From positions 24,877 through 88,876 of the forward strand of contig NZ_BBPO01000018.1 of the NCBI RefSeq assembly GCF_000787815.1: a DNA stretch of 64,000 bases, in the 5' to 3' direction. Positions 28,841 through 55,300 of this stretch are shown here, piece by piece. How positions within the stretch are numbered: position 1 is the stretch's first letter; each line of letters starts with the position of its first letter. The position numbers and the translations under genes were made by a program. Under the pieces are notes generated by a model. The model saw only the letters and a program-made list of their open reading frames with translations. It had not been told where the DNA came from and searched no databases. The stretch comes from Streptacidiphilus neutrinimicus. Lineage in GTDB: Bacteria; Actinomycetota; Actinomycetes; Streptomycetales; Streptomycetaceae.

Positions 28841-28859
28841 CCCCGGGGCGGAGGCAAGC

Positions 28860-28900
28860 CCAATCGTCAGCCCCTCGGGCTGACGATTGGTATAGCTTGC
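28860..28900 (+). other. oriT: Candidate oriT: inverted repeat with putative nic region
   Basis: A perfect 14-bp inverted repeat CCAATCGTCAGCCC/GGGCTGACGATTGG with a 3-nt CTC loop spans 28860-28890 and is followed at once by TATAGCTTGCTG. Known MOBP origins such as IncP have an inverted repeat just before a nick of the form TATCCTG^C, and TATAGCTTGC resembles this. It sits just upstream of mobC and the relaxase gene, the usual place. It could instead be a translational control hairpin for mobC. No nick site has been tested. Confidence 0.5.
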
Positions 28901-28953
28901 TGCCGCGCGGTGGGCGGGCGGACTGCCCGCACCGCCTGCGCCGTTGGGCGAGC

Positions 28954-29184
28954 TCAAGCCGCCATCCCGCCCCGTCGGCGGCCCGGTCGGCGTGCGTGCG
29001 CCAGGGTGTCGACCGCGAAGTCGAGGGCCTCCTCGGTGCCGTCGAGGGCGATGACCGGCCCGGTGTCCTTGCGCCGGACCAGCCACCCGCCGTCGGACTG
29101 GCGTCGGGCCACGGTGACGTGCCCGTACGCGATCAGGTGGCGCATGAGGTCGACCGCCTGCTCGGCCTTGGTGCTGCTCGGCAT
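28954..29184 (-). CDS. Small unknown protein of the mobilization operon
   Basis: The product is 76 aa from ATG 29184 with GAGGAC upstream. It reads MPSSTKAEQAVDLMRHLIAY then GHVTVARRQSDGGWLVRRKD, a compact alpha/beta protein with a basic C-terminus. It stands between DUF2637 and MobC. DNA binding near oriT is possible but not shown. Confidence 0.65.
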   Translation of the reverse strand: MPSSTKAEQAVDLMRHLIAYGHVTVARRQSDGGWLVRRKDTGPVIALDGTEEALDFAVDTLAHARRPGRRRGGMAA

Positions 29185-29210
29185 GATGTCCTCGTCTCGG
29201 AAGTAGCACT

Positions 29211-29235
29211 GTCTGGTCCGCCACGCGGACCAGAC
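29211..29235 (-). terminator. 11-bp perfect hairpin after the DUF2637 gene
   Basis: GTCTGGTCCGC, CAC loop, GCGGACCAGAC. It lies between the stop at 29247 and the start of the 76-aa gene at 29184, so it would end or attenuate the replication-operon transcript. Confidence 0.6.
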
Positions 29236-29246
29236 CGGTCTGGTCC

Positions 29247-31179: not shown

Positions 31180-31893
31180 TCAGCGGGCGGCGGGGGCGAC
31201 TCTGCGGTCGCTGCCGTCGAGGGGGATCACGGTGCTCATCTGGCGCAGGCGGGAGGTGACGCGGTCGCCGAGGACGTCGCGCAGGTCGCCGGGCATCGGC
31301 CTGGGGCCGACGGGCAGGTTGCTCGTCATGATCGTCGGGAGCATCTCGCGGTACCGGTAGTCGATGAGCCGGTAGGTGACCTGCTCGGTGAAGGGCGTCA
31401 CCCCTCCGACGCCGAGGTCATCCAGCAGCAGCAGCGGCGCGCGCTTGAGGAGCTCGAACTCCCTCTCGCCGTCCCCTGTCTGGCGCGGACGCATCATGGC
31501 GTGCAGCTCGGCGCTGGTCGTCTCGCGCCACGACAGCCGTACGCCCATGGCCAGCAGCGCCCTGACCGCCCCGTACGCCTGGTAGGTCTTGCCGGTGCCG
31601 GTGGGGCCGATCAGCAGGATCGAGGGCGCGTGGTGGATGCCGGGGCGGCCCTGGATGCCGGGGCGACCCGCGTCGGCGACCCGCCTGGTCCAGGCGGCGA
31701 CGTCGGGGTGGGTGGCCTCGGCCTCACGGAAGAGGTACGGGATGCGGCGCTCGGCGGCGTCGAGGGCGTCCTGCGGCAGGTAGGCGCGGTCGTCGGCGAG
31801 CTCGGGCAGGGTTCGCAGGTCCATGCCGCGAGTGCGCAGGATCGTGGCCATCTTGGCCATCAGGCCGGCGGCGCGCTGGGGCTCACGGTCCAT
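31180..31893 (-). CDS. DnaC/IstB-like AAA+ ATPase
   Basis: The product is 237 aa from ATG 31893, which shares one base with the previous stop (TGATG). Walker A is ILLIGPTGTGKTYQAYGAV (near residue 100), Walker B is LLLLDDLGVGG, and the sensor region is PTIMTSNLPVGP. DnaC-type ATPases load the replicative helicase. Immediately after a winged-helix replication protein, it very probably serves element replication. A 31097-31179 gap separates it from whiB. Confidence 0.88.
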   Translation of the reverse strand: MDREPQRAAGLMAKMATILRTRGMDLRTLPELADDRAYLPQDALDAAERRIPYLFREAEATHPDVAAWTRRVADAGRPGIQGRPGIHHAPSILLIGPTGTGKTYQAYGAVRALLAMGVRLSWRETTSAELHAMMRPRQTGDGEREFELLKRAPLLLLDDLGVGGVTPFTEQVTYRLIDYRYREMLPTIMTSNLPVGPRPMPGDLRDVLGDRVTSRLRQMSTVIPLDGSDRRVAPAAR

Positions 31894-32804
31894 CACAGGC
31901 TCCCTGCGTAGGCGTCGGCGGCGACGGGGTTGGTCCAGGCGTGGTGAGGCTGCCGTGCGGCGGGCACGGCGGCGGGGCGGGGGTTGTCGGCTTCGTGGAC
32001 CATGCTCGGCAGGACGGACGGGGACAGGGGCTTGTGCCAGTACCGCAGGAGTCCGGCGTGGATGCGGTCGGGCGCGACGCCCTGGTCGAGCAGGCTCTTG
32101 ATGGTCTTGCCGAGGTGCCCGCGCACTTCGCGGGAAGGCTGACGGTCGGGCGCGAAGGTGCCGGTGTACCAGGCGACCATCTCCTGGGCGGTCTGGCCCC
32201 GGGGAGGGGTGGGCGGCTGCAGCGGGGGCGCGGCGAAGCCGTCCCCGTAAGGGGTAGATCCGAGATCCTTGATCCCAGATCCAGGCGCGAGCGGCTCCGG
32301 AGTCCTCTGGAGAGGCTCCGGAGAGTGGCTCTGACCTGCGGTTTCTATGCCGTTCTCCCCAGCGGGGGGCGTGATCGTCTCGGGGCGGTGGCTGGACTGC
32401 TCGACGGTGCTGGAGTGCACGTGCTGGCAGCGTCCGCAGGCCCTGGCGGGGCCCGGCACGGGGTGGGTCGGGCAGGCGGCATAGCGGCTGGGGGTCGGGT
32501 GGGAGATCTTCTGGTGCTCGAACCAGCCGACGAGGTGGAGGTACTTCTTGCCGTCGCAGCCGGTGTACCGGCAGACGAGTCCGGCCTGCTCCAGTTGCTG
32601 GAGGTGGTCCTCGACGTCCTGCCAGGTGATGTCGTCGCGCTCGGCCCAGACGAGTCCCTTGATGGATCTCGCCTTGTCGGCGTGGCGGCCCTGGTCGTCG
32701 GCGTGGCTGATCAGGCCGATGAACGTCAGGACGGCGGGGATGCTGACGGAGCACACCCTGTCGTTGGACCACAGCTCCGGCTTGATGGTTCGGATCCTGG
32801 CCAT
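31893..32804 (-). CDS. Winged-helix replication initiator-like protein
   Basis: The product is 303 aa from ATG 32804. The N-terminus MARIRTIKPELWSNDRVCSV, then ADDQGRHADKARSIKGLVWA, DVEDHLQQLEQAGLVCRY and YLHLVGWFEHQKISHPTPSR match the phage/plasmid replication initiation family with a winged helix at residues 1-110. A disordered linker follows, then a helical end (LGKTIKSLLDQGVAPDRIHA). It would bind the origin and recruit the DnaC-like ATPase encoded by the overlapping downstream gene. Confidence 0.85.
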   Translation of the reverse strand: MARIRTIKPELWSNDRVCSVSIPAVLTFIGLISHADDQGRHADKARSIKGLVWAERDDITWQDVEDHLQQLEQAGLVCRYTGCDGKKYLHLVGWFEHQKISHPTPSRYAACPTHPVPGPARACGRCQHVHSSTVEQSSHRPETITPPAGENGIETAGQSHSPEPLQRTPEPLAPGSGIKDLGSTPYGDGFAAPPLQPPTPPRGQTAQEMVAWYTGTFAPDRQPSREVRGHLGKTIKSLLDQGVAPDRIHAGLLRYWHKPLSPSVLPSMVHEADNPRPAAVPAARQPHHAWTNPVAADAYAGSL

Positions 32805-37569: not shown

Positions 37570-38682
37570 TTACGCCCCGGATCGAACTGTGGCTGCCAGA
37601 GAGTGCAGGATGACCGACTCGCTGCTCTGCAGGCCGGATGACAGAGCAGTGGCGAGTTCCACTGGGAGCTCTCCTGAGTCCAGGCCGCAGGCGTTCACCA
37701 GCTCCTGGCAGGCGCGGAGTTGGCTCTTGGTGGCGAGAGTGGCGAAGTGGCTGTCGGCCAGGGTCTCGCGGGCGGCGTAGCCGTCGCGCGCGGTGCTGGC
37801 TCGTTGCGCGAGATCGTCGACGAGGCTGCGGGCTGACGCGTGATCCGCGCTGCCGATGGTGTTCAGCGTGGTGAGACCGAGGCGTATGTCGAAAACGGTC
37901 AGACCCGGCTTGGCCGCGTGTCGCAGGTAGTAGGCCACCAAAGCGGAGGAGGTGTCGGAGTCCTGGGCTGCGCCGTTGTGGCAGAGAGCGGCGAGGCAGG
38001 CGGTGACTTCTTGCTCCCACGGATCTCCTGGGGTGGTGGCGGTGAGGAGGTCTGCTGCACGCTGTGTGTCGTTGTCGACGAGGGCTGCGACGACGGCGAC
38101 TTGGCGGCCGTCCAGCATCCGGGAGCCGATGCCGCGGTGCTGCTCGATGTGGGCCAGGGCTTCCTGCCAGCGGCCGGTGCTGGTCAGGGTGCGTGTGCCG
38201 TCGGCGAGCAGGACGCGCCACAGCCACGCCTGGACCTCTTGTCGGTCCGCCTCGGTCCGGCAGAGATCAGCGGGGACAGTGATGCCCTCGAAGGTGGCGT
38301 TGCCGCCGGAGTTGACCGCTTCGTAGAGGTCCAGGAGCCGCTGACGGCCTTCGTCCGCGTTGCCGGCGCGGATCTGCAGCCGGGCAAGGTTGACCAGAGG
38401 TTCCAGGCCCCGGATCGCGCTGGCGGCCGTGAGTGGAGTGCCGTTCAGGTAGGCGCTGGCGTGCAGGTGGCACATCGCCCTGGACAGGTCGGGGAGGCCC
38501 AGGTCGGAGGCGAGGAGTGCGGACTGGTTGAAGACGGTGGAGGCAAGTCCTTGCTCGCCTTGCTGTTCAGCCCTGCCGGCCAGCTCGGTCAGTGCCTGGA
38601 CGCGGTCCGGCAGGGGCAGGCAGGCGGGCCGGTTTCGGGCGATGAGCGGGAACCGTCGTGCTGTCGGGCCGTCCGCTTCCAT
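37570..38682 (-). CDS. TPR-like helical protein beside the lanthipeptide operon
   Basis: The product is 370 aa from ATG 38682, with GGGGGAG in front; a start farther upstream would add 26 residues. It is a continuous set of helix pairs (LTELAGRAEQQGEQGLASTV, ASAIRGLEPLVNLARLQIRA, GRWQEALAHIEQHRGIG), like the TPR-type C-terminal half of Streptomyces XRE regulators but without an HTH. A strong hairpin (38719-38752) separates it from the methyltransferase gene upstream, so it is a separate unit. It may sense a ligand or partner protein; the function is unknown. Confidence 0.75.
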   Translation of the reverse strand: MEADGPTARRFPLIARNRPACLPLPDRVQALTELAGRAEQQGEQGLASTVFNQSALLASDLGLPDLSRAMCHLHASAYLNGTPLTAASAIRGLEPLVNLARLQIRAGNADEGRQRLLDLYEAVNSGGNATFEGITVPADLCRTEADRQEVQAWLWRVLLADGTRTLTSTGRWQEALAHIEQHRGIGSRMLDGRQVAVVAALVDNDTQRAADLLTATTPGDPWEQEVTACLAALCHNGAAQDSDTSSALVAYYLRHAAKPGLTVFDIRLGLTTLNTIGSADHASARSLVDDLAQRASTARDGYAARETLADSHFATLATKSQLRACQELVNACGLDSGELPVELATALSSGLQSSESVILHSLAATVRSGA

Positions 38683-38773: not shown

Positions 38774-40846
38774 TCAGCGCCAGTCGACGAGGATGCGGTT
38801 CAGGGGTGTGTCGATGGAGAACAGGCCAGGCTGCTGCTCGATCGGCGGCGCGTCGAGGTGCTGAATCTCGAAGGTCGCCTCGCGGCCGCGGTACTCGCGG
38901 TCCCAGGTCCGGATCGCGTCGGCGACCTGTGCGGCCAGCTCGTCGCTGCCGGGCCCGTGGCCGATGACTCCGAACTCCCAGAGCTTGCCGCCCTCGCGGG
39001 TCGTCTGCTGCAGCAGGCGGCGGGCGAGGTAGGTGACGGCGCCCTTGTCGATAGCGGCTGTGGACGACGGGTAGGGGTCGTCGGTGAGCAGGGTGCCCTT
39101 GGCCTCGGGACGGAACAGCATCCTGGTCAGTCCGGAGGGCAGGGAGCAGGAGACGAACAGCTCCATCCATTCGGGCGACTCCATGGCCTGGACCGTCATG
39201 CCGGTCCACTCCTCGGTGCGCGGCTGGTCCAGCGCGCCGGACAGGGCCTCAGGGTCGAGCGGCAGACCGGCGGGGGCTTGGAGCCGGACCGTTTCGTCCG
39301 CGCTGATGGGGATGATGCGGCGGTCGTCGTCGGCGATGCCCCGGCGCAGCGGCATGAAGGTGTTCATCTTGCTGCTCACGCTGGTCCAGCGGCCGTCGTT
39401 CTCCTCGTAGGCGATGGACCGGGAGACGCTGCCCTTCAGGCGCTGCGGCACGACGAGGCGTCCGCCGGGGGCGAGCTGGGAGAGCCAGGCGTGTGGGATG
39501 CCGTGGGCGCCGACCGTGGCGATGATCCGGTGGTAGGGCGCGCCTTCGCCGTGGCCGACGGCTCCGTCGCGGGTGAGTGCCTGGACGTGCGGGTACCCGG
39601 CGGCGGCCAGGTTGCTGCGGGCGCCGTCCACGAGGTCTTCGTCGACGTCGATCGTGGTCACCTGGCCGCTCTCGCCGACTAGCTGGGCCAGGAGCGCGGC
39701 GTTGTAGCCGGTGCCTGCGCCGAGCTCCAGGATGCGCTGGCCGGGCTGAGGGTCGAGCTGGTCCAGCATGAGGGCCACGACGGTGGGCTGTGAGGCGCAG
39801 GAGATGGCCTGGCCGTCGGCGTCGTACTTGATGTTGACCGGGGTGTCGGCGTACGCCTCTTCGAGGGAGGCGTCGGGCACGAAGAGGTGGCGGGGCACGG
39901 TGCGCAGCGCGGCCTCGACGGCGGATTCTCGGGCGTATCCGGACTCGCGGATCTTGTCGACCAGGGCGTTGCGAAGGCGCGCGGCCTCGGCCCCGTTGGG
40001 GGCGATCGTGTCGGTTGTCACCGCTGCGACGTTAGTGGCTGCGGGTGTGCTCGCAGCGGACGACGCGGTGTTGTCACTCGATCCCATGACTGCCTCTCGT
40101 GCAAGGGTGAACAGGGTGCTTTGGTCGCTGGGGAGGAGACCGGCGCGGTTGGCGTGGAAGATCAGGTGGTGGGCGATGACGGCTCGCAGCCCGCGTGTGA
40201 GCCCGGCCCCGGCGGCGAGGTCGGCCAGCCGCTCGCCGGTCCGCTCGAAGGCGTCCAGCCACAGGCTGTGCGCGTCGAGCGGGCCGCCGGGCCTGGCCAG
40301 GCTGTGGGCGTCGGCGGTCATCAGCGTCCGGACTGCCGAGGTGATTGCGGCGGTCTTCGCTGGGCGGACGCCGGGGCGGAGCGCAGCGGCTTGCCCCCAC
40401 GCGTCGCCTTGCTCGTACCAGTCCAGTCGGGCGGCGCGCATCATGGCGCTGAGCAGCAACACGGCCGTCTCCCGGCGTCCCAGGTGCCCGGCGCCGGGCT
40501 GGTAGGTGAGCAGGTGGCGGCTGTCGCAGTGGAACAGGTCGTGGGCTGCGTCCATGGCGGGCTCGCCGCCGAAGGCGATGGATTCCGGCTCGTAGATACC
40601 GGGCAGTGAGGACTTCACCGTGCCGTCGTCGAGCAGGTCACGCAGAACCTCCTGGAGCAGCGCAGACGGCCGGTCCGCGCGGTAGCGCAGCGGCCAGGGC
40701 TGCTTGTTCATGAACCACCAGCCGTCGGCCTGTCCGGCGTCCTCGGCGGCCAGCAGGGCGGGGCCGAGCCGTTCGGCTATGGCGCGCTTGGCGCTCGTGC
40801 GGTTGATGAAGGTGATGTTGTGCTGCTGCCAGGGTGCGGGGGTCAT
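38774..40846 (-). CDS. LanB-C domain fused to PIMT-like methyltransferase, FxLD system
   Basis: The product is 690 aa. Residues 1-255 (WQQHNITFINRTSAKRAIAE, DGWWFMNKQPWPLRYRADR) are the small thiopeptide-type/LanB C-terminal domain, and 286-690 a protein-L-isoaspartate-O-methyltransferase-like domain with ESGYARESAVEAALRTVPRH, the SAM site ILELGAGTGYN (372-382) and RIIATVGAHGIPHAWLSQLA. In FxLD lanthipeptide clusters this methyltransferase acts on the precursor. The related LanS/OlvSA enzymes methylate Asp and lead to isoAsp through succinimide, and the precursor core here has an Asp-Asp-Gly. It is 22 bp downstream of lanC, the last gene of the operon. Confidence 0.9.
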   Translation of the reverse strand: MTPAPWQQHNITFINRTSAKRAIAERLGPALLAAEDAGQADGWWFMNKQPWPLRYRADRPSALLQEVLRDLLDDGTVKSSLPGIYEPESIAFGGEPAMDAAHDLFHCDSRHLLTYQPGAGHLGRRETAVLLLSAMMRAARLDWYEQGDAWGQAAALRPGVRPAKTAAITSAVRTLMTADAHSLARPGGPLDAHSLWLDAFERTGERLADLAAGAGLTRGLRAVIAHHLIFHANRAGLLPSDQSTLFTLAREAVMGSSDNTASSAASTPAATNVAAVTTDTIAPNGAEAARLRNALVDKIRESGYARESAVEAALRTVPRHLFVPDASLEEAYADTPVNIKYDADGQAISCASQPTVVALMLDQLDPQPGQRILELGAGTGYNAALLAQLVGESGQVTTIDVDEDLVDGARSNLAAAGYPHVQALTRDGAVGHGEGAPYHRIIATVGAHGIPHAWLSQLAPGGRLVVPQRLKGSVSRSIAYEENDGRWTSVSSKMNTFMPLRRGIADDDRRIIPISADETVRLQAPAGLPLDPEALSGALDQPRTEEWTGMTVQAMESPEWMELFVSCSLPSGLTRMLFRPEAKGTLLTDDPYPSSTAAIDKGAVTYLARRLLQQTTREGGKLWEFGVIGHGPGSDELAAQVADAIRTWDREYRGREATFEIQHLDAPPIEQQPGLFSIDTPLNRILVDWR

Positions 40847-40868
40847 CTGTGGGGTCCTTCTGTCGTGG

Positions 40869-42122
40869 TCAGGCGATGAGGAGGCAGGCGTCCCAGCTCG
40901 ATATCGGCGGGGTGCCGCTCGCGGCTTCCGTGAGCGCCAGTGCGACGCCGGCTGCGCCGTTGAGGAATCCCGGACCGGCTGTCTCGTCGTGTACCAGGGC
41001 GTTGGCCACGGCCGCCGGATCGGCTTCCGGCGGGCAGACGGCGTCCAGGAGGGCGGGTATCGCGGCGCGGAGCTGCCGCGCCGTCAAGGGGCGGGCGTCG
41101 ACGGCGGCGCGGTCGGCGATGTGAGCGAGTCCTGCGAAGCCGTGGCACAGCCCGTGGTCCGTGGTGGCCTTGAGCTGGTCGGAGTCAGGGAGCAGGGCGG
41201 CGGTGAGCGTGGTCTCGGCGTGGATCTGGCGGCGGGTGTCGCGGAGGGCCAGGGCGGCGAGTTGCTGGGCGCGGGCATGGCCGGCGGTGCCGTAGCACCA
41301 AGAGGGGCGTCTCGGCGCGGAGGGTTGGGGGCGTCCCTCGCGCGGTTCCGCGCGGGTGACCCAGTACGGCCAGGTGGCACCGGAAGGGTCGTCCTCCCGC
41401 CAGCGGTCCAGCCAGGCCAGGATCCGCCGCAGTGCGGCGTGGTGACCGCTCACGGTGTAGCCATGCCGCTTGGCCAGAGCCAGCAGCGCGAGGACGCCGC
41501 TGATGCCGTGGGCCATACCCGTGTTGCCGTGCCCGCCTGGGAAGCGCGGGTCCGGGCGGCCTGCCGGCCCGGAGTCGGTCCACCAGCCAGGCAGGTCCTC
41601 GCCGTTGACGGTGACCGGTTCGGTGAGGCGGGTGCAGTAGTGCAGCACCTTGGTGAGGGTGAGGCTGAGCGGGGCACGGTGCAGGAGGTAGGCGCCGTAG
41701 CCGACCAGGCCACGGATCGCGTCGAACTCGGCGAGTTGCGGCAGTCGACCGGCGTCGATACGGCGGTGTGCGGCGTCAAGGCGGCGTTGGACGTCGGCTT
41801 GGATCTGCCCGTCCATGCGCGCCAGGGTGCCCTGGTAGGCGCTGGGTTTGTGGTCGGCGGCACGGGCCACCGCGTGGGCCAGCGCGGGTACGCCATAGAA
41901 GGGGTGGCTGTCGGGTCCGATGGTGACCGGCCCGCTGGCGGCGGCGAGCCAATCGCGGGCGCGCTGCCACGAACTGAATCCGGCTGCGGCGCGCTCGATG
42001 TGCAGCAGCGCGATGCCCGCGGGTCCGTAGGCGAGCTGTTGCCGGTTCGAGGAGACGTCTTCGGGATCGGCGAGCAGGTCGGCGATCGTGTTCGCGACCT
42101 GGAGCGGGGCGGTGCGGGTCAC
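40869..42122 (-). CDS. lanC: LanC-like lanthipeptide cyclase
   Basis: The product is 417 aa from GTG 42122, inside the lanB stop (GTGA). It has the seven-hairpin barrel repeats (YGPAGIALLHIERAA, GGHGNTGMAHGISGVLALLA, GTAGHARAQQLAALALRD) and the zinc ligands in SWCYG and LCHGFAG. LanC adds Cys thiols to dehydrated Ser/Thr to form (methyl)lanthionine rings. Length and ligand spacing are normal. Confidence 0.93.
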   Translation of the reverse strand: MTRTAPLQVANTIADLLADPEDVSSNRQQLAYGPAGIALLHIERAAAGFSSWQRARDWLAAASGPVTIGPDSHPFYGVPALAHAVARAADHKPSAYQGTLARMDGQIQADVQRRLDAAHRRIDAGRLPQLAEFDAIRGLVGYGAYLLHRAPLSLTLTKVLHYCTRLTEPVTVNGEDLPGWWTDSGPAGRPDPRFPGGHGNTGMAHGISGVLALLALAKRHGYTVSGHHAALRRILAWLDRWREDDPSGATWPYWVTRAEPREGRPQPSAPRRPSWCYGTAGHARAQQLAALALRDTRRQIHAETTLTAALLPDSDQLKATTDHGLCHGFAGLAHIADRAAVDARPLTARQLRAAIPALLDAVCPPEADPAAVANALVHDETAGPGFLNGAAGVALALTEAASGTPPISSWDACLLIA

Positions 42123-45100
42123 GGCGTCCTCCGGGACATCCAGGCCAGGGCGGCGGCGCGGGTCAGGTAGAGGCAGATCGCTTCCTCGGGGAAGTCGACT
42201 GCCACGTGCCGCACGAAGTGGACGTGCAGCAGCGAGGACAGGACGTCGTCGAGGCGGATCCCTTGGCCGTCGGAAACGTGCAGGCGGGTCCGGTATGCGG
42301 CAAGAGCGTGGTCGCGCTCGGCCCACGCCGCGACGACGGCTTCCCCGCCCGGTGCGCCGCGCAGCGCGGCCCAGTCATCGGTCGGGTCGGCGAGCCAGAC
42401 CGTCTCCCTGAACTGCGGGCGCGGTACCGGGCCTGGGGCGACCGCGAGGATGTGGGTGGACAGCCAGCGCATGGCGGCCTTGGTGTCGCCAAGGAAGGCG
42501 GCGGCGATGGCGATGGTCTGTGCGGCCACCAGAGCGCGCTGCGGCGGGCGTTGCCGCTGGGCAAGAAGGCCCAGGACTGCGCGGGAGTCGGCGCGGAACA
42601 CCTCCTCTGCTGCCGTCCAGGCGGCTCCGGAGCCCCAGCGTCCCATCTCGCGGTACGAGGTGGGGAGACGCAGGTCCGACAGCAGTCCGGCCGCACGCAG
42701 CTCGTTGGCCCAGGTGCCGATGGTTCGGGCGGTGTCGGCGAAGGCGTCAGGGTCGGGCAAGGCGATGCGCAGCCGCAGGTGGTGCTGGGGGTCACGGAAG
42801 CGGATGAACCACCACGGCGGGCTGCCGAGACGATCGAGCAGGTCGGGAAGGTGTTCGGCGAGGAGGGCGTCCTGCCGGCGCAGGTCTCCGTAGAGGGTGG
42901 CGAGCAGCAGCGGGGAGACGCCCGGGGTCTGGACCTGCGCGGCGGAGAACCTGCGCGCGGGGCTCGGTGTCGGCAGCTTCGGCCAGGCCGGTGGGCGGAC
43001 CGCAGTGAGCGGCACGACGACTTCGTGCGCCCGGCCCCCACACCAGCCGTAGGCGCTGGCGTCCGGGGTCTCCAGCAGTACCGCGACGCCAGCGCGGGAC
43101 AGGTACTGCCGCAGCAGCGTCCGGTGCGGCCCCAACCCCAGGTCCAGCAGCAGACGCTGATCGCCTTCGGCCAGGAGGACCCGCTGCGGGAGACGCCGCC
43201 GGGTGCGCCAGTCGTCCAGGGCGGCGTCCCACCGGTCCTGCAGGCGATCACGACCGGGCAGCTCGGCGGCCTCCAGCCGCCACCGAGCCGGGGCGAGCAC
43301 CGTTCGGCCGTGGCGCACCCTGGGCAGGAACGGCATGGCGCTGGCCGCACCCCAGTCAAACATGGTGACCTGGGCGGCCTGAGCGCGGGAGAGCTCGATC
43401 AGGAACCGGGCCAGGGGCGGTGTGTGCTCGCGCAGGTTCAGCGCGTTCATCCCCACGGCCTCGATTCGCTGGCTGCGTTCGGGGGCGGCCAGGTACATCC
43501 GGCGGCCGTCGCAGGCCACGGCCAGGTCCGCGGGGGTGAGCACGTCGCAGCGAGGGGCGCGGTGTTCCTGGACGCTGATCACGGTCGGCAGGACCTGCGG
43601 GGTCCGGGTGACGTGGGCGCTGCCGGGGTGAAGCGGAGGGAAGGACATCTGTGCGGCGATGGTGCCGGTGTCCGCGGCGGGAAGCTCGGCCAGTTCGACT
43701 TCGAGGCGGGCGCGGTCCTCCGGGGTCAACACGGTGAGGAAGCGGCCGATGGTGACGCCGAGGCCCCTGGAGACGCTCGTCATCTCCAGCTGGAATCGTC
43801 CGCGTTGCAGTTCCTCGGCGCTGGCTGCGTGGATACGGACGCCGACCTCAAGATGGGGCGGCAGGCGGGGCGTCTCTGGGCCCAGGTCCATCGCCGCGAT
43901 CAGGTCGTCAGTGAGGAGCACTTCGTCGCGGCCGTCAAGGATGGCGGCCTGCGCGGCGCGTAACAAGGCGTCGTCCCTCGTCGAGACGCGGGACCGTCGT
44001 CCGTCGCTGGGAGTGCCCGGGTATCCGTCGGGCAGGCCGATGCCGCTGTCAGCGACGACCTCGGCGAGCGGCACCATCGTGCCGATTCCGAAGGTCTCGT
44101 AGAACCGGCGCTGGTATGCCTTCCACGCGGCGGTGCCGTAGGGCAGGGGGCTGACCCGGGCCAGGACGGCAGCGGCACGTTCGATCTCGTAGGCGACGTT
44201 CTGCGGCACCTCGACGTCGGCGCTCAGACGCAGGTCGAGCGCGAGAGGGTGGCGGCGCAGTCCAGGGACGGCGGCCCGCATCCGTGCGGCGGCGCGGGCC
44301 CGGCCGCTCCTCGTGTCGCAGCCGCGCAGGTCCCGCTGTACCGCGCCCAGTTCACGAACGAGGTCGGCGACGGGTGCGACCGCGCCGGCACGGGCGGCGT
44401 CGAGCTGGGCCAGCAAGTAGTCCAGGGCATCGGTCTCGGTGCTGGGTGCGCGCAGATTAGTGATCAACACCCTGTGCCGGATCAGCCCTTGGATGAGCCG
44501 CTGGGCACTGCTCCCGTCGGCGTCGGGGAACTCTGCGATCAGCTTGCCCGCGAGAGCGCCAACGCTGATGGGTGCCTGCGCCGCATCCAGAACGGCCCGG
44601 ACCGGCGGGGTCAGAGACATGGATGCCTCAACGGCCCTGCGCCGATCGTTGTCGGTGTTGGACTCGTAGGGCACGATCAGCCGTCCGCCGCGCACCTGCA
44701 CGGTGTTGCTGACGAGCACCGGCAGGCGCTCCACCAGCTCAGGGCAGGCCTCAAGCCGCTCGACCACGGCGTGCAGCCACTCCGCGCTAGCTCGCGCGAG
44801 AGCATGGTGTTCTGGTCCCCACGTCGCTCTGGCGCGCGGTCCGACGGTGGCCGTAGTGACGCCGGCGAACAGACCGAACGGCGTTGCCCTCTGCTCGGCA
44901 CGCAGGGCATACCGGGCCACTGCGGCGACCGCGCGGCGAACGTCGCGGTCTGGTGGGGCGCTGGAGGAGAGCAGGCCACGCACCTGCGAGACGAGGTCCG
45001 GGCTGGCGTGCTCCAGGGCCTCGGTGAAGTCCGTCCCCGTCCAGACAGCACGGAGCCAGCTCAGGCGCGTCTCCGCGCTGAGAGGGGACGGGTCATCCAG

Positions 45101-45190
45101 TTCGGGGACCGGCGGGACATGGAGGTCCGGCACGGCGACCGCGCGCACGAGTGCGGTCTTGCCTGCGCGAAACGCGCCTCTCGAAGTCAT
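42119..45190 (-). CDS. lanB: LanB-type lanthipeptide dehydratase (class I)
   Basis: The product is 1023 aa from ATG 45190 with CTGGAGG upstream; the open frame upstream overlaps the precursor gene and is not used. It has the tRNA-Glu-dependent dehydratase architecture: residues 1-700 glutamylation domain (FRAGKTALVRAVAVPDLHVP, RAEQRATPFGLFAGVTTATV, PYGTAAWKAYQRRFYETFG) and a C-terminal elimination domain (LLLATLYGDLRRQDALL, PPWWFIRFRDPQHHLRLRIA). It dehydrates Ser/Thr of the FxLD precursor encoded just upstream. A hairpin between precursor and lanB (45215-45252) should lower its expression. Confidence 0.95.
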   Translation of the reverse strand: MTSRGAFRAGKTALVRAVAVPDLHVPPVPELDDPSPLSAETRLSWLRAVWTGTDFTEALEHASPDLVSQVRGLLSSSAPPDRDVRRAVAAVARYALRAEQRATPFGLFAGVTTATVGPRARATWGPEHHALARASAEWLHAVVERLEACPELVERLPVLVSNTVQVRGGRLIVPYESNTDNDRRRAVEASMSLTPPVRAVLDAAQAPISVGALAGKLIAEFPDADGSSAQRLIQGLIRHRVLITNLRAPSTETDALDYLLAQLDAARAGAVAPVADLVRELGAVQRDLRGCDTRSGRARAAARMRAAVPGLRRHPLALDLRLSADVEVPQNVAYEIERAAAVLARVSPLPYGTAAWKAYQRRFYETFGIGTMVPLAEVVADSGIGLPDGYPGTPSDGRRSRVSTRDDALLRAAQAAILDGRDEVLLTDDLIAAMDLGPETPRLPPHLEVGVRIHAASAEELQRGRFQLEMTSVSRGLGVTIGRFLTVLTPEDRARLEVELAELPAADTGTIAAQMSFPPLHPGSAHVTRTPQVLPTVISVQEHRAPRCDVLTPADLAVACDGRRMYLAAPERSQRIEAVGMNALNLREHTPPLARFLIELSRAQAAQVTMFDWGAASAMPFLPRVRHGRTVLAPARWRLEAAELPGRDRLQDRWDAALDDWRTRRRLPQRVLLAEGDQRLLLDLGLGPHRTLLRQYLSRAGVAVLLETPDASAYGWCGGRAHEVVVPLTAVRPPAWPKLPTPSPARRFSAAQVQTPGVSPLLLATLYGDLRRQDALLAEHLPDLLDRLGSPPWWFIRFRDPQHHLRLRIALPDPDAFADTARTIGTWANELRAAGLLSDLRLPTSYREMGRWGSGAAWTAAEEVFRADSRAVLGLLAQRQRPPQRALVAAQTIAIAAAFLGDTKAAMRWLSTHILAVAPGPVPRPQFRETVWLADPTDDWAALRGAPGGEAVVAAWAERDHALAAYRTRLHVSDGQGIRLDDVLSSLLHVHFVRHVAVDFPEEAICLYLTRAAALAWMSRRTP

Positions 45191-45214
45191 CAGAGCCTCC
45201 AGGTCGGCCGGACG

Positions 45215-45252
45215 GCCGGTGCCTTCGCGCTGCAAGGCGCAAAGGCACCGGC
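45215..45252 (-). terminator. Attenuator hairpin between precursor and lanB
   Basis: GCCGGTGCCTT (45215-45225) and AAGGCACCGGC (45242-45252) form a perfect 11-bp stem with further pairing in the loop. Partial terminators in this position make precursor mRNA exceed that of the enzymes in many lanthipeptide operons. Confidence 0.65.
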
Positions 45253-45273
45253 ACAGTTCTATGCCTGTTGCTG

Positions 45274-45438
45274 TCAGGCCACGTTGGTGGTGCAGGCGCC
45301 GCAGGTCTCGCCGCAGCCGTCGTCGGTCAGGTTGACCAGGCCGGCCGGGTCGGCGACCTCGACCAGGGTGACGTCCAGCTCGAAGCCGCTGACCTCGGTG
45401 TCCGGCTGCGCCTTGGTGATGTGCTGGATGTTGCTCAT
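45274..45438 (-). CDS. lanA: FxLD-family lanthipeptide precursor
   Basis: This is a 54-aa gene too short for usual calling. ATG 45438 follows AAGGGGAG. The leader is MSNIQHITKAQPDTEVSG, then FELDVTLVEV, the FxLD motif that gives the family its name (residues 19-22). The core region reads PAGLVNLTDDGCGETC then GACTTNVA: Cys42, Cys46 and Cys49, Thr38, Thr45, Thr50 and Thr51. Up to three methyllanthionine rings are possible. Asp40-Gly41 is a natural succinimide site for the PIMT-like enzyme of the operon. No leader protease or dedicated LanT exporter is encoded nearby. Confidence 0.92.
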   Translation of the reverse strand: MSNIQHITKAQPDTEVSGFELDVTLVEVADPAGLVNLTDDGCGETCGACTTNVA

Positions 45439-45639: not shown

Positions 45640-46155
45640 TCATGGGAGGGGCCATCTCAACAGGGCCACGTAGACGCCGGCGGCGAGGAAGGCGGGCAGA
45701 CCGAGCCCGTATGCCAGGCGGCGGATCCGAGAGGGCCGCCGTGGTGTGGCGTGCCGTCGACGTACCGGCACGGGCACAGTGCGCAGACGAGGCAGGTTGA
45801 TCGCGCCAGCCGGAGGACACACGGAGACTTCGTAGCGGGCTTGGTCGTCGACGAGCGCGAAGGTGACCGGCAGCCCGTTGTCTAAGCGGCGGGCGGCGAC
45901 GCGCTGCGCGCCGACGTCGGTCATCCAGTCCTCGGCGATGCGTTGTGCGGAGTCGTCAAGCTGCGCGGCGGTCTCCCACAACTTGCGGTGCAGCCACTGC
46001 AGGGCCGCGCTCGGCGTCGGAGCGGTGTACCGGCTCAGCCAGTAGCCGCCCTGCGTTCCGTCGACCGGGAACGCCGTGTGAGTGCACGCGTACGCGAGGG
46101 GAGTCAGCCGGTCGGCGCTTGCGCCGGCAGAAGGGGGAAGAGTGCTGGTCAGCAT
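45640..46155 (-). CDS. Unknown protein with C-terminal membrane segment
   Basis: The product is 171 aa from ATG 46155 behind AGGAGATG. The soluble part contains HRKLWETAAQLDDSAQRIAE and RRLDNGLPVTFALVDDQARY. The end, RRLAYGLGLPAFLAAGVYVALLRWP (about residues 145-170), is one membrane span with basic residues before it. It overlaps the ATP-binding protein gene by 7 bp. It is the last of four overlapping genes; the role is unknown. Confidence 0.7.
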   Translation of the reverse strand: MLTSTLPPSAGASADRLTPLAYACTHTAFPVDGTQGGYWLSRYTAPTPSAALQWLHRKLWETAAQLDDSAQRIAEDWMTDVGAQRVAARRLDNGLPVTFALVDDQARYEVSVCPPAGAINLPRLRTVPVPVRRRHATPRRPSRIRRLAYGLGLPAFLAAGVYVALLRWPLP

Positions 46156-46580
46156 GCTTCATCTCCTGTCGGGATGGTCGCCCACACGGTCTTGCCTACG
46201 GGGTTTCGGTCGCGGAAACCGACTTCCGTGGCGAGCATTCGGACGAGCGTCAGTCCGCGCCCGCCCTCGTCCTCGGCGGCGGCGATGACGGGCCTCGGTT
46301 GCTTTTCGCGGCTCGGGTCGGAAACCTCAACGATCAGCGCCTGGTCGTCGCTGAGCAGCGCGACGTGGACCAGGTGCTTGGTATCGCAGTGGCGGATGGC
46401 GTTGGTCAGCAGCTCGCTGACGATCAGCTCGATGTCGTCGATGGTCGCGGGCGGGACGCCGATATCCGTCAGGGCCCTGCGGGACTGGTGCCGGGCGAGT
46501 GCGACGGCCTTGGGGTAGGGGGTGAACCACATGTCCCATACCTCGGCTCGCGCAGCCTCAACTTGGGTTGCCTGCGTCAT
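46149..46580 (-). CDS. RsbW-like ATP-binding protein (HATPase)
   Basis: The product is 143 aa from ATG 46580. It has the GHKL ATPase boxes: N-box IELIVSELLTNAIRHCDTK, G1 LIVEVSDPS, G2 DEGGRGLTLVRMLATEVG. Streptomyces has many such stand-alone anti-sigma-like kinases with partners of unknown specificity. The start overlaps the stop of the 56-aa gene, so the four genes 46977-45640 are translationally coupled. No sigma or anti-anti-sigma factor is adjacent. Confidence 0.85.
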   Translation of the reverse strand: MTQATQVEAARAEVWDMWFTPYPKAVALARHQSRRALTDIGVPPATIDDIELIVSELLTNAIRHCDTKHLVHVALLSDDQALIVEVSDPSREKQPRPVIAAAEDEGGRGLTLVRMLATEVGFRDRNPVGKTVWATIPTGDEAC

Positions 46581-47056: not shown

Positions 47057-48286
47057 TTACGCGGTCATGCCGATGTGCTGCGCCACGGCCCTCAAATCCT
47101 GCCGCCACATGGGCTTTTCCCGCTTGAGCAGGTCAGCGACGGCCTCGCGGACCAGGGGCGAGTAGCCCACCTCTTCGGGTGACTGGTCGGTGATCCGCTT
47201 GAGCATGTAGACGGTGGCAAAGTCGTCTCGCTGGATGCGGTTGCAGTTCATGACCTCGATCAGGTACCGGGTCCGGCGCTCCAGCGGCAGGTCAGGGTTA
47301 CCGTCCTCGACGGTGTCGGCCACGCGCAGGGCCTCCGCCGTGTCGCCCTCTTCGGCCCGAAGGTGCACCGCGTGCATGGCCACATTGGTCGGGCCGAAGC
47401 ACGTGTGCCAGTCGTTGCGGTCCTGGCCGATTCGCAGCGCCATGCGCTCAGCCCCTCGGTACAAGTCCCAGGCGACTGGGCCTTGGTGGGCGCGTACGGC
47501 GGCGACCGACGCCTGTAGGTGGAGCGCTCCGTAGGCAGACAGGTGCTCGATCGGCGCGTCGTCGCTGGGCGTGCAGTTGGCGATCGCCTCCCTGGCCAAG
47601 GCGACGCTGTCAGCGACCTCGCCAGAGGACGTCAGGACGCAGGACAGGTTCCACGTCGCAGCGGCGAGCAACGCGGGGTCGCCGACCTGGTCCGCGAGCG
47701 ACAGCCCGCGGTCGGCGGCGACGCGGGCCTGCACAGGCTCGCCAACGCGCCGAAGCCAGATCTGTGCCAAGCCGTACATGGAGATCAGGAGGGCAACGGC
47801 CTGCTTCTCCTGCTCTTCGCCTTCGGCGTCACGCACGGCGGCGTAGCCCTGCCGCAGCAGGTTCGGCAGCCGGCGGCCGACTTCGGCGTACCGGTCCTTG
47901 GTCTGGGTCTCGTAGACCAGCCACGCGTCATCCACAGCTTGTCGGTACTCGTCCACAGGCACCTCGCTGATGCCGGACGGCAGGAGGGAGAATGGCAGCG
48001 CGAGTACCCGCCGGATCGCGGGAACTGCTTCGTGCTCGGTCTGCGGCCCGGACACGGCGCCGGTCAGCACCCCGCCGGTCAGGTCCGCCAGGTCGCGGAT
48101 GTGCAGCACACGGGCCAGGTCGATGAGGACGGACAAGCGGTCGATGGGCAGCACGCCCTTCTCGACCTTGTAGGCCCAGTTCTCGGACCTGCCGACGAGC
48201 TCTGCCATGGCCTTCTGCGACAGCCCCGCGCGCTCGCGGTAGTACCGAATGCGCTCACCGACGCCGAAGTCCTGCTCCAAGCCCAT
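47057..48286 (-). CDS. XRE-family regulator with TPR-like C-terminus
   Basis: The product is 409 aa from ATG 48286. The HTH is GERIRYYRERAGLSQKAMAE, LVGRSENWAYKVEKGVLPID (residues about 10-65). The remaining 340 residues are TPR-like helices (AAATWNLSCVLTSSGEVADS, AYGALHLQASVAAVRAHQGP). This is the common Streptomyces type of large XRE regulator that may sense small molecules or peptides. It is divergent from the HAD gene and may control the neighbouring operons; the target is not shown. Confidence 0.88.
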   Translation of the reverse strand: MGLEQDFGVGERIRYYRERAGLSQKAMAELVGRSENWAYKVEKGVLPIDRLSVLIDLARVLHIRDLADLTGGVLTGAVSGPQTEHEAVPAIRRVLALPFSLLPSGISEVPVDEYRQAVDDAWLVYETQTKDRYAEVGRRLPNLLRQGYAAVRDAEGEEQEKQAVALLISMYGLAQIWLRRVGEPVQARVAADRGLSLADQVGDPALLAAATWNLSCVLTSSGEVADSVALAREAIANCTPSDDAPIEHLSAYGALHLQASVAAVRAHQGPVAWDLYRGAERMALRIGQDRNDWHTCFGPTNVAMHAVHLRAEEGDTAEALRVADTVEDGNPDLPLERRTRYLIEVMNCNRIQRDDFATVYMLKRITDQSPEEVGYSPLVREAVADLLKREKPMWRQDLRAVAQHIGMTA

Positions 48287-48450
48287 GACCTGAGTTCCCC
48301 TCAACCGCGCGCAGCCGATGCAACCCTCCACTGTCAGGGTACGGCCACGGCCAGTGCTCGCGGGAGTGTGTTCCCGACCGGACGCCCGCGTGGTATACGG
48401 TGCCCACACGCCCATACGGGGGTGCGCAGACCTGTACGGAGAGCCTCAGC

Positions 48451-50120: not shown

Positions 50121-50768
50121 ATGGAGACTCTGGAGTGGATGCAGGAGCTGACGCGCCGGGTGGGGGCTCAGGTGGCAGCCCAGCGCAAGCGGCTTGGCTG
50201 GACCGGGGCGGAGCTGGTCGGTGCCTGTCAGGCACTGGGGTACAGCAAGCTCTCTGCCTCGGCGGTGTCGAAGATCGAGACTGGTGGCCGCGACGGGTTG
50301 ACGCTCGCCGAGCTGCTGGTATTGGCCGAGGCACTGGGCGTTCCCCCCGTTAGCCTCGTCTTCCCGTTGTCCGGCGGCGATGTGAACAAGACGCCAGTCA
50401 AGAGCGTGACGGCCTGGGAGGCGGCCTCGTGGTTCACCGGGGAGGAGCCGTTGGAGGAACCTGCTGGCGAGGGTACGCCTCGTGGGGATCTGGAAGATCA
50501 TCGCAGCCATGTCCTCTCCGTCCAGGCCGCCGTGCAGAGCGACCGCCTGGCCAGCGAGCGGCGGCGCCTGGCCTCCCGAGTCGAGGACCCCGAGCAGCGG
50601 GACCTGGCGCAGGAGAACGCAGCGGCCTTCGAGCAGATCGCCAGGAAGGACTGCCTGGCGTTGGGGAGGCTGCGGGACGACATGCGCCGTCGCGGCCTCA
50701 GCCCTTCTCCCCTGCCCCGTGAGATCGCCTGGGTGGACGACTCGGACTCCGGCAGGAGCGGCCGATGA
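50121..50768 (+). CDS. XRE-family regulator upstream of the integrase
   Basis: The product is 215 aa from ATG 50121. The HTH is RRVGAQVAAQRKRLGWTGAE and KLSASAVSKIETGGRDGLTL, followed by LLVLAEALGVPPVSLVFP. The C-terminal 110 residues are charged helix. The stop overlaps the integrase ATG (ATGA), so it probably controls integrase and, on the other side, xis. Confidence 0.85.
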   Translation: METLEWMQELTRRVGAQVAAQRKRLGWTGAELVGACQALGYSKLSASAVSKIETGGRDGLTLAELLVLAEALGVPPVSLVFPLSGGDVNKTPVKSVTAWEAASWFTGEEPLEEPAGEGTPRGDLEDHRSHVLSVQAAVQSDRLASERRRLASRVEDPEQRDLAQENAAAFEQIARKDCLALGRLRDDMRRRGLSPSPLPREIAWVDDSDSGRSGR

Positions 50769-52291
50769 GTGACACCGGCGTGGAGCGCAGGTGCACCTGC
50801 CGGATACCGGGCACCCGGCGCGCGTACGGCTCGCAGTGCCCCAAGCTGAGCAATCGTCGGCACGGCACGTGGCGGGCACGGCTGACGCTGTACCCGGCGA
50901 CGGACGGGCGGGTCCGCCGCTTCGCCCGCCAGGGCTTCGCCAGCAGCACCGCCGCCGGAGAGTTCCTCGACGCCGTGCGCGCGCTCATGAGCGTCCCGGC
51001 CAAGGAGGACGCGGATGCGCGGACTGCCATCAGCGATCTCCTGGAGGAGTGCTCAAAGACCGGTGGTCCTCTGCCCGAACTGACCGAGATCACCCGAAGG
51101 TACGCGGTCCGGGTGAAGTTGACCGATGAGGTGACCGTCGGCGACTGGCTCGACCAGTGGCTGGAGGGCAAGGCGGCACTGCGGCGGACCTCCCGCAGCA
51201 GCTACGAGGGGCACGTCCGCAACCACCTCAAGCCGCACCTGGGCCACCACCGCTTGGGCAAGCTCGAAGTGGTCCATGTGGAGCAGATGTTCGCGAAGAT
51301 CACCGAACAGAACGCGGCGATCCTGCTGGCCAACGCCGAACGCGCAGCGGTGCGTGACAGGCTCAACGCGACGCCGAACAAGGGAGCGGCACACCGGGCG
51401 CTCCGGAAGGAGCTGCGCGGGCAGCTCGCCGGCTTGCCACCCTTCCGTCGCATCACGGACGTGGCCACCCAGCACAGCATCCGCCGGACGCTGCGCGCAG
51501 CGCTCAACGTGGCGATCCGCCGACAGATCATCCCGAACCTGAACGTCGCCAGCCTCACGGAACTGCCCGCCCCGAAGCCGCGGAAGGCTGTCCTGTGGAC
51601 ACCGGAGCGTATCCGAGCCTGGGAGAAAACAGGAGTTCGGCCGTCACCGGTCATGGTGTGGCCGCCGCACCTAATCGGCCGCTTCCTCGACGGCATCGCC
51701 GACCACCGCCTCTACACTTTCTTCCACCTCATCGCGTTCCGCGGCCTGCGCCGAGGCGAAGCCTGCGGTGCCCGGTGGACCGACCTGGACGAGGAGAACG
51801 CCTCGCTCAACGTGGCAGTTCAGTTGGTGCAGGACGGATGGGACGTCTACGAGGGGATCCCCAAGACCGAAGCCGGCAGCCGTGACGTGGCGATGGACAC
51901 GGAGTCGATGTCCCTCCTTACACGACAGAGGGTGGTCCAGCGGGACGAGTTCGTCGCCCTCGGCCTGGACCCTGCGGATGCGGTCAGGATCTTCACCGAC
52001 GAAGACGGGAAAGAACTGCACCCAGGCAAGATCACCGATCTGTTTGAGCGGCTGATCGCGTCGCTCGGCCTGCCCCCGATTCGCCTGCACGACCTGCGGC
52101 ACTGCGCTGCGACCCTGGCTCTCGCTGCCAACGTCGACATCAAGATCGTCTCCAAAATGCTCGGCCACAGCTCCACCACCATCACCCGCGAGATCTACGG
52201 CACCGTCCTCCGGGAGCTGTTCCACGCGGCGGCCGAAGCCGTCGTCGCCTTGGTCCCCCGGGCCAGGCGAGCAGGCGTGGCGGGCGCCTAG
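50765..52291 (+). CDS. int: Tyrosine recombinase (integrase)
   Basis: The product is 508 aa. It has a Cys-bearing N-terminus (RRCTCRIPGTRRAYGSQCPK), an arm/core-binding region (LDQWLEGKAALRRTSRSSYE, HVRNHLKPHLGHHRLGKLEV), and the catalytic domain with FRGLRRGEACG (Arg I), RLHDLRHCAATLAL (HxxR), KMLGHSSTTITREIYG (His and the nucleophile Tyr). This is the long type of actinomycete integrase that uses tRNA 3' ends. It points toward the att site at 57.4 kb. The IS982 element begins immediately after its stop; TAG is within the CTAG target duplication. Confidence 0.95.
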   Translation: MSDTGVERRCTCRIPGTRRAYGSQCPKLSNRRHGTWRARLTLYPATDGRVRRFARQGFASSTAAGEFLDAVRALMSVPAKEDADARTAISDLLEECSKTGGPLPELTEITRRYAVRVKLTDEVTVGDWLDQWLEGKAALRRTSRSSYEGHVRNHLKPHLGHHRLGKLEVVHVEQMFAKITEQNAAILLANAERAAVRDRLNATPNKGAAHRALRKELRGQLAGLPPFRRITDVATQHSIRRTLRAALNVAIRRQIIPNLNVASLTELPAPKPRKAVLWTPERIRAWEKTGVRPSPVMVWPPHLIGRFLDGIADHRLYTFFHLIAFRGLRRGEACGARWTDLDEENASLNVAVQLVQDGWDVYEGIPKTEAGSRDVAMDTESMSLLTRQRVVQRDEFVALGLDPADAVRIFTDEDGKELHPGKITDLFERLIASLGLPPIRLHDLRHCAATLALAANVDIKIVSKMLGHSSTTITREIYGTVLRELFHAAAEAVVALVPRARRAGVAGA

Positions 52292-52310: not shown

Positions 52311-55300
52311 TCAGTGGTCATAGGCGGTCAGTGAGCGTGTGACTGGCGCGCCGATCTGGTTGTTGTGCCAGATGCCGGTGGTCATCGCCAGGATGCGCTG
52401 GGCGACCCGGATCGCGACGCCCTCGAAGGTCCGCCCGCCGTGTTGTTCCAGGTCGAGCTGCCCTTTGAGGGTGTCGTTGACCGACTCGATCAGCTGGCGG
52501 ACCTTCTTGAGCATGGGCTCGCCGTAGCGCTTCTTCTCGCGCTTGAGCGAGGGCCGCAGCAGCTCGATGCCGAGCTCGGCGAGCTCCTTCTCGAACGTCT
52601 TCGAGGCAAAGCCCTTGTCCGAGACGAGCAGCACGCCCTCGCGGCGGGCGACCAGCTCGGCGTCGACCTCGAGCATCGCGGCCAGAACCTCGCGCTCGCC
52701 GATCTTCGGGTTGGCCAGTGCCCACATGATCGGCATGCCGGTCGGCGTGCAGACCAGGTACAGGCGCAGGCCCCAGAAGAAGCGGGAGTGGGAGGCGCAG
52801 TAGCCGTATCCCGCCCAGCCGGCAAGGTTCGAGCGCTGGACGGTGGGGCGCGACATGCCGCACGGCACCGGGGTGGAATCGGTGAGCCACACCGTGTCCG
52901 TCCAGAAGTCGCTGTCCCGGGCGAGTTCCCGGATCATGCGCTTGACCAGCGGCAACGACGCACGGAGGCGCTTGTTGTAGCCCGCTCGCTGCGGCAGGTA
53001 CGGGAACATCCCGCACAGGTGCTTGCGGGCGTAGCGCAGCCAGCGGGCCTCGGAGTGGTAGCCGAGGAGCGCTTGCGCCACCGCGAGACAGACGAGTTCG
53101 GAGTCGCTGAGCAGGGGCGGGCGGCCCATCCACCGCGTCCCTCCGATCTCGTCGGTGAGGTAGGCCCGTGGGCGCGGTGCCGACGTTTCCGTCGGTCGTC
53201 TCCCTCGGGCCCCCTCCCGCACCCGGCGTGCGAATTACTCCGCACCGGGCGCTCCACGTGTCTTGACCGCCGGTCAGCCGCTTGCCGGGGCGGCTGCTGG
53301 TTTCGAGGGCCATGGGGTCGGGATATCACTGCCGCGGTAGCGGTAGCGTTCCACCGTGACGCTGGCCGCGCCGGTGAAAACGACCCCGTTGTAGGCGAAG
53401 CGCCATCCCCTGTCGCAGAAGCGGTTTCGCATTTCCTTCATCCCGAGCCGGTGCTTCCCTGTGTACTTGGCACGGATCCAGCGCATCAATCGGCACCAGG
53501 TGTGATGGTCGACTGAGGCGAAGACCGCCTTTGACACTCCGTATCGAAAGAAGTTCGCCCATCCCGCCAGGGTTCGGTTGAGGCTGCTCAGCAGTTCGTC
53601 CAGTTCCATATGGCGGGTTGATCTGTACGTTTGCTCCCTCACCTTATCCTTGATCGACGCGATGGACTTCTTGGAGGGTTTGGTGTAGACGTAGTGCTTC
53701 GCGGTTCCTCGTTTCCGCTGGCGGCGGATATTGTGCCCGAGGAAGTCGAAGCCCTCGTCGATGTGGACCACTCGGGTCTTCTCAGGTGCCAGCCGCAGCC
53801 CCAGTGGGGCGAGCACGACCGCCACTTCCTCGCGCAGGGCCTCGGCATGGTGACGGTTTCCCGATACCACCAGAACGAAATCATCCGCATAGCGGATGAT
53901 TCGCCAGTTGCCAAGGCCGTCCTTCTTGCGCTTGGACCGCCGGTAAGGTGTCCCCATATCGCGGCGCCACTGCTGGTCGAAGTGATCGTCCAGCGCGGAC
54001 AAAGCGATATTGGCGAGCAGCGGCGAAAGAATCCCTCCCTGTGGAGTCCCCGTCAGCGACTCTTCCCGATTTCCGAGTTCGGTGAGGATCCCGGACTTCA
54101 GGAACGCCTTCACCAGCCCGCAGATGCGCTTGTCCTTGATCCTTGTCCGGAAGCGGTTCATCAGCGCCGTGTGATCAATCTCGTCGAAACAGGCTTTGAT
54201 GTCGCACTCCAGTATCCAGTGATAATCCCTGGATCCGGAGGCCAGATAGTGAATCTCGGCGATGGCGTCATGTGCGCGCCGTTTCGGGCGGAACCCGTAC
54301 GAGCACGGCTTGAAGTCCGCCTCGAAAATGGGCTCGAGCACTGCTTTCAGGCTTGCCTGGACCACGCGATCTGTGATGGTGGGAATCCCGAGTTTCCGGA
54401 ATTTCCCCGAACTCTTCCCTTTCGGGATCATCACCTGTCGCACCTCGGCCGGACGGTACTCGCCTGACTTTAGCAAGTCCCGGAGCCGGGCCAGGAAGAC
54501 ATCGACCCCGACCCAGGTTTCGACCATGGGTGCTGTGACCTTGTCGATTCCTGCTGTCTTGGCGCCCCTATTGGTGGACACGCGTTGCCACGCAGCCCTA
54601 AGGAACGCCGGGTCGTGCACCAGATTGAACAGATCATCGAAACAGCGGCCGGGTTCCTCGGCCGCCCAGCGGTGCAACTTGCTCTGCATTCTCCGTACCG
54701 CGATCTCAGCCGAATCTGCATCCGGCCATGACGCGGCGCCGGTATTCACCGGCGCATCTCCGGACATTACATGCACTCCTTGTCTGACACGCTGCCGCCC
54801 TTCTCCATGTGCTCGGGCTTTCCCCGGCTCGAAGTACTACGGCGGCTCCGCCCCCTCCGCACCTTCGGCAGACGTCGCACCTATCCCACCGACCGTCCCT
54901 GGAGGGGAAAGGCGGCAGGAACGCGTGCGGATGGTTCCCACGTTCCCTGTTGTCCGATCGACGGGTTAGGCACCCGGCTTTACCCCTGCGGCGTCGTCAC
55001 GACTACTGCCGTAGACAATTCACCGTGACCTCCCGATTCGGACATCGAAGACCCTTGTCGGAAGTTCCTCGCCGCCACTATGAGTGGCGAGTGCGCACCG
55101 CGATCCAGCCCGCATCCACCGGGTTAGAGCTGGCACGTGATCAAGAGGCGTAACGCAGCCGGTTCCTCGCGTATACCTTCCCGTCTCGCTCACCACGCCC
55201 GGTCCATCCGGCAGTGCTGGACCGTCGCGACTTTGTCGAGGCTGCTCCCGCCGTCCCCGGCGACTCCCGGATCCGACTGCCTCCAGCTTCACCCCACCGC

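Follow-up and report, generated by a model that had tools for sequence, protein, structure and literature searches.

A probable coi-type class I lanthipeptide gene cluster of the lanthimiditide group in Streptacidiphilus neutrinimicus

The closest described relatives of the locus analysed here, a lanthipeptide operon within a stretch of 64,000 nucleotides from Streptacidiphilus neutrinimicus (contig NZ_BBPO01000018.1, positions 24,877 to 88,876; hereafter the window, with its own numbering), are the coi cluster of Streptomyces coelicolor A3(2) (CoiA1-3, CoiB, CoiC, CoiSA, CoiH) and the olv cluster of S. olivaceus NRRL B-3009 (OlvA, OlvB, OlvC, OlvSA). In coi, the methyltransferase is joined to a glutamyl lyase domain unlike the canonical LanB lyase: Lys46 of CoiSA is essential, the catalytic His and the equivalent of NisB Arg826 are absent, and the reaction leads to D-allo-L-methyllanthionine (MeLan), proposed to form via syn-elimination to (E)-dehydrobutyrine (Dhb) (PMC9011353, PMC9486935). 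The olv cluster shares with the window operon an FxLD-type precursor, a conserved Asp in the first MeLan ring (predicted for our locus), LanB, LanC and a methyltransferase of the protein isoaspartyl methyltransferase (PIMT) type, but its methyltransferase stands alone, with no second lyase and hence no allo-MeLan (PMC9486935). OlvSA methylates an Asp, giving succinimide or isoaspartate (isoAsp), and its products hydrolyse to isoAsp (Acedo 2019, as reviewed in PMC13001092). Walker et al. 2020 had already described both the conserved Asp and proteins that fuse a LanB C-terminal domain with PIMT (PMC7268733). The SapT cluster (SptA, SptBa, SptBb, SptC) also employs a syn-type glutamyl lyase with the Lys signature of CoiSA, but differs from the window cluster in having a split and no full-length LanB; its peptide is morphogenetic (PMC9011353).

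The window operon carries the same gene set as coi, and we assign it to the coi type of class I lanthipeptide clusters, within the lanthimiditide group, with a probability of roughly 0.92 on the evidence of sequence comparison. All five genes lie on the minus strand and follow, in the direction of transcription, the order precursor, lanB, lanC, lyase-methyltransferase fusion, coiH-like gene encoding a tetratricopeptide repeat (TPR) protein:

45274..45438, minus strand: lanA, the FxLD lanthipeptide precursor of 54 amino acids (TIGR04363, 46.9 bits, cut-off 30; ribosome-binding site AAGGGGAG)
45373..45384, minus strand: FELD leader motif, precursor residues 19-22, predicted recognition motif (sequence)
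45313..45327, minus strand: TDDGC, precursor residues 38-42, predicted first ring with the predicted target Asp40 (conservation, published TxDGC motif)
42119..45190, minus strand: lanB, full-length dehydratase with glutamylation domain and predicted canonical anti-glutamyl lyase domain (PF04738, PF14028)
40869..42122, minus strand: lanC, cyclase (PF05147)
38774..40846, minus strand: lanSA, predicted 690-amino-acid fusion of glutamyl lyase and PIMT-type O-methyltransferase, CoiSA type (PF14028 at 6-252, TIGR04364 at 288-689)
40067..40846, minus strand: N-terminal domain of the fusion, residues 1-260, predicted syn-type glutamyl lyase (residue signature)
38777..39985, minus strand: C-terminal PIMT domain and C-terminal extension of the fusion, residues 288-690 (TIGR04364; PCMT, PF01135; Foldseek)
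37570..38682, minus strand: coiH-like gene, TPR alpha-solenoid protein of 370 amino acids (tblastn, AlphaFold, gene neighbourhood)

An earlier note on this DNA had described the short precursor ahead of full-length lanB, lanC and the fusion, with which both coordinates and family matches agree; its operon of four genes fell short by the coiH-like gene. It recognised the fused LanB-C/PIMT-like protein but did not name the function of the fused domain, a second glutamyl lyase of the CoiSA type by our prediction. The novelty that it implied does not hold, as the fusion has the published CoiSA architecture, and both architecture and chemistry are on record for coi and olv (PMC7268733, PMC9486935, PMC9011353).

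Because TIGR04363, PF04738 with PF14028, PF05147 and TIGR04364 all find matches, the genes are not chance open reading frames (ORFs); they form a real and apparently intact class I lanthipeptide cluster, whose full-length LanB and LanC retain the catalytic and zinc-binding residues. Purine-rich ribosome-binding sites precede the precursor, the fusion and the coiH-like gene. The likely start of LanB, ATG at 45190, gives a protein of about 1023 amino acids, and that of LanC, GTG at 42122, one of 417, with an overlap of 4 bases with the lanB stop. LanB holds the equivalents of NisB R784, R786, E823, R826 and H961, and the canonical anti-lyase residues are kept in 72 or 73 of the 73 aligned LanB proteins of related clusters; its lyase domain is thus predicted to be of the canonical anti type. 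The LanC zinc ligands C276, C326 and H327, as well as H205, were found in 73/73 aligned sequences. Neither protease nor exporter domains were detected among the neighbouring ORFs, a scan covering the main ORFs and not every reading frame, which agrees with the earlier statement that no leader protease or exporter adjoins the operon.

The precursor reads MSNIQHITKAQPDTEVSGFELDVTLVEVADPAGLVNLTDDGCGETCGACTTNVA, with AAGGGGAG upstream of its ATG, and FxLD is a known motif for recognition by the lanthipeptide RRE domain (PMC12710340). The earlier note had called the peptide missed because of its size; NCBI's TIGR04363 model does pick it up. A PDB sequence search with the peptide gave no match. Both curated cut-offs of the NCBIfam FxLD system (TIGR04363 precursor, TIGR04364 methyltransferase) are well exceeded, and we saw no material difference from that system. 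The core, residues 38-54 (TDDGCGETCGACTTNVA), contains Cys42, Cys46 and Cys49, Thr38, Thr45, Thr50 and Thr51, and Asp39-Asp40-Gly41, as had been noted before; the three Cys and four Thr would be available for lanthionine or MeLan rings. The peptide shares with coi the FxLD motif and the arrangement T-D-D-G-C...T-C...C..T-N-V-A. Unlike coi, with its three precursors, the window cluster has one, and its core is one residue shorter than that of CoiA1 between the second and third Cys and carries an extra Thr50. A coi-like comparison locus (L162) has three precursors (one with core TDDGCGSTCSSPCATNVA), LanB, LanC, SA and a gene at the coiH position, all in the same order.

Asp at position 40 is invariant among 70 related precursors (70/70), within the TDDGC of our core, and TxDGC is the published motif of the PIMT-modified lanthipeptide group (PMC10787088). 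Earlier, Asp-Gly had been proposed as the ideal modification site. The Asp part of this proposal stands, but the emphasis on Gly was too strong: in the related precursors the residue after Asp40 is more often Asn than Gly (LTDDNC in 46, LTDDGC in 18), and Gly has been described as the usual, not the sole, residue following the conserved Asp (PMC13001092). Asp39 is likewise an Asp within the first ring, and there are lasso peptides and graspetides that carry an aspartimide (PMC13001092), so that one might expect Asp39 to be methylated instead, or an aspartimide to be the end product rather than isoAsp. We consider this unlikely, as Asn replaces Asp at position 39 in three of the 70 precursors (loci L017, L065 and L079) while position 40 never varies, the published motif is TxDGC, and the OlvSA products hydrolyse to isoAsp (PMC13001092); an aspartimide may nonetheless be the end product here. 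The pattern of conservation points to Asp40 as the conserved Asp and predicted methylation target, and the earlier outline of an FxLD class I lanthipeptide with PIMT-type tailoring at this residue is supported.

The fusion scored 451.9 bits against TIGR04364 ("methyltransferase, FxLD system"; cut-off 320), and the match takes in about 200 amino acids beyond the PCMT core, placing the domain in the clade of PIMTs that act on ribosomally synthesized and post-translationally modified peptides. The PIMT residues S349, S352, E374, G376 and G378 are kept in 77/77 aligned fusions. In a structure model of the whole protein, of middling confidence (predicted local distance difference test, pLDDT, 73) and used solely for confirming the domain folds, the PIMT domain matched the PIMTs 2yxe and 1dl5 in Foldseek. 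As in CoiSA, the N-terminal part has the equivalents of Lys46, Arg53 and Glu89, the first being Lys48 here and present in 76/77 aligned fusions. The counterparts of NisB Arg826 and His961 are gone: the former position is Ala in our fusion and A, T or V in 77/77, the latter Ile and I, L or V in 77/77. The comparison locus L162 has K46, R51, R53 and E89 exactly at the published CoiSA positions, and its fusion shares about 48% identity with ours in the lyase part and about 58% in the PIMT part. Walker et al. 2020 raised other roles for such extra elimination domains (PMC7268733), and with the canonical His base and Arg826 absent, the fused domain could be no lyase at all and serve another catalysis ([4+2]-type cyclisation or peptide aminoacyl-tRNA ligation) or substrate docking only. 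This is highly improbable in our judgement: the characterised syn-lyase domain of CoiSA lacks precisely these residues (PMC9011353, PMC9486935), the Lys essential to the syn-lyase is almost always retained, and the core offers the acceptor Thr and Cys. The residue signature thus predicts a syn-type glutamyl lyase.

Drawing on gene content, motifs, active-site residues and conservation, with the chemistry transferred by homology from coi and olv, we propose the following course of biosynthesis. LanB would recognise the FELD leader motif and glutamylate core Thr residues with its N-terminal domain, and its own lyase domain would turn Thr38 and Thr45 into (Z)-Dhb. A C-terminal Thr, most likely Thr51, would become (E)-Dhb through the lyase domain of the fusion; since Thr51 aligns with CoiA1 Thr57 and Thr50 with CoiA1 Ala56, Thr50 should remain unmodified, and three dehydrations are expected. 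LanC would then close the MeLan rings Thr38-Cys42, Thr45-Cys49 and Cys46-Thr51, the last probably as D-allo-L-MeLan. The PIMT domain would methylate Asp40 within the first ring, and the ester would pass through an aspartimide to mainly isoAsp on hydrolysis; the final product form may be aspartimide, isoAsp or Asp. Leader removal and export would fall to proteins encoded elsewhere. Three points weigh against the coi-type assignment or its details. The fusion has Pro52 where CoiSA has Arg51; Pro is usual at this position in the subgroup (69/77 fusions), and the CoiSA R51A variant still yields three-fold dehydration (PMC9486935). With a core one residue shorter than that of CoiA1, the predicted ring sizes and the choice between Thr50 and Thr51 are extrapolated. 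Finally, no native-host product has been reported for any coi or olv cluster (PMC9486935).

When about 85,000 species genomes were scanned, 80 loci came up whose methyltransferase region is 73-83% identical to ours, nearly all of them from Streptomyces or close relatives. Counting a second locus of the same genome, 62 of 81 have a precursor, LanB, LanC, fusion and TPR gene that are each close to full length; the others are mostly cut at contig ends, frameshifted, truncated or had their precursor missed. The exact core TDDGCGETCGACTTNVA recurs in other Streptomyces, nine of the related loci having it. Across 294 genomes of the order, an FxLD precursor was found in 82 and TIGR04364 at E <= 1e-90 in 120; among the matches listed for genomes searched with both models, those positive for TIGR04363 also carry TIGR04364. 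The second coi-type cluster of our genome (L089; G000:C157:68000-86000) has the same gene order, enzymes 52-61% identical, the core TDDGCGSTCGACNSTVA and a coiH-like gene with an in-frame TGA. Six loci (L014, L058, L069, L071, L081 and L085) retain the methyltransferase with a complete or partial TPR gene, whereas precursor, lanB and lanC are missing and the lyase domain is absent in whole or in part. We tried them as a separate imiditide-like system, which was not supported, the lyase domains being partial or missing and some TPR genes broken; as the loci were fetched through PIMT, truncated ones are expected in the sample. The existence of truncated relatives, the second cluster, and the mobile-element genes of the window (integrase, MobC, group II intron) would also fit a decayed or silent operon. 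Sequence inspection and alignments make this improbable for the window copy, whose five genes all have open reading frames, ribosome-binding sites and intact active sites, the in-frame TGA belonging to the second cluster; the intact copy may still be silent.

The coiH-like protein gave no Pfam family above cut-off and weak TPR matches only, and the function of CoiH has been described as unknown (PMC9486935). It is about 41% identical to the protein at the coiH position of L162. By tblastn, a match lies directly downstream of the fusion in 80 loci, and among the 294 genomes, 66 of 70 occurrences lie no farther than 9 kb from a TIGR04364 gene, which 58 adjoin directly; the protein is thus a dedicated member of these clusters, in the same operon. 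An exclusive tie to the lyase fusion was considered and rejected, as 8 of the 66 linked occurrences accompany stand-alone methyltransferases. The AlphaFold model (pLDDT 90.7) is a TPR alpha-solenoid for which Foldseek returned generic TPR proteins only and no match at E <= 0.001; a PDB sequence search with its profile gave no match. Structural matches of the model include NprR, RapI and RapH (Z 11-13), mixed with unrelated TPR proteins, and helical repeats reach such scores by their common arrangement, so that the modelled similarity to these peptide sensors is no evidence of function. We regard it as rather unlikely, though worth stating, that the protein is a dedicated peptide-binding partner of isoAsp lanthipeptides, such as a sensor, chaperone or immunity protein.

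Upstream of the precursor lie two candidate regulators; of the 73 entries with a strong LanB match, 42 have a same-strand homologue of the first no more than 3.5 kb upstream of lanB:

46149..46580, minus strand: HATPase_c_2 protein (RsbW-like, ATP-binding), candidate regulator with weaker association (PF13581)
47057..48415, minus strand: helix-turn-helix protein, weakly matching NsdA-type TPR regulators

On the other side, a DUF6545 gene followed by a cytochrome P450 (35822-37522, plus strand) converges with the operon. The P450 (36353-37522) was rejected as a tailoring enzyme, being on the opposite strand and present in 2/81 loci only. MobC-like (28322-30070, minus), IstB-like (31180-32772, minus) and tyrosine integrase (50765-52291, plus) ORFs flank the operon, which suggests a mobile-element context; the window contains no tRNA genes. 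Further to the right are a group II intron (53155-54776, minus), in which Rfam RF00029 matches 53155-53254 and an ORF at 53274-54776 encodes a reverse transcriptase/maturase, and a partial BREX/Pgl defence system (57710-63983, minus) with very strong PADLOC matches to PglZ (61197-63983), BrxD (59869-61200) and BrxHI (57710-59872), the remainder of which would fall past the right edge of the window.

As an ordinary representative of a known type, the cluster, which also sits in many Streptomyces and relatives, enlarges by one a family that already counts hundreds of members and whose products and roles are undescribed. Its use is comparative: Asn39 in three relatives fixes which Asp is conserved, and the shorter core offers a test of the way in which sequence governs ring size and the choice of lyase. 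What interest remains concerns the role of the product and the near-obligatory coiH-like TPR protein, the component without any described function. Should that protein prove to be a peptide-binding partner, these widespread peptides would have a part in signalling or development and not an antibiotic one.

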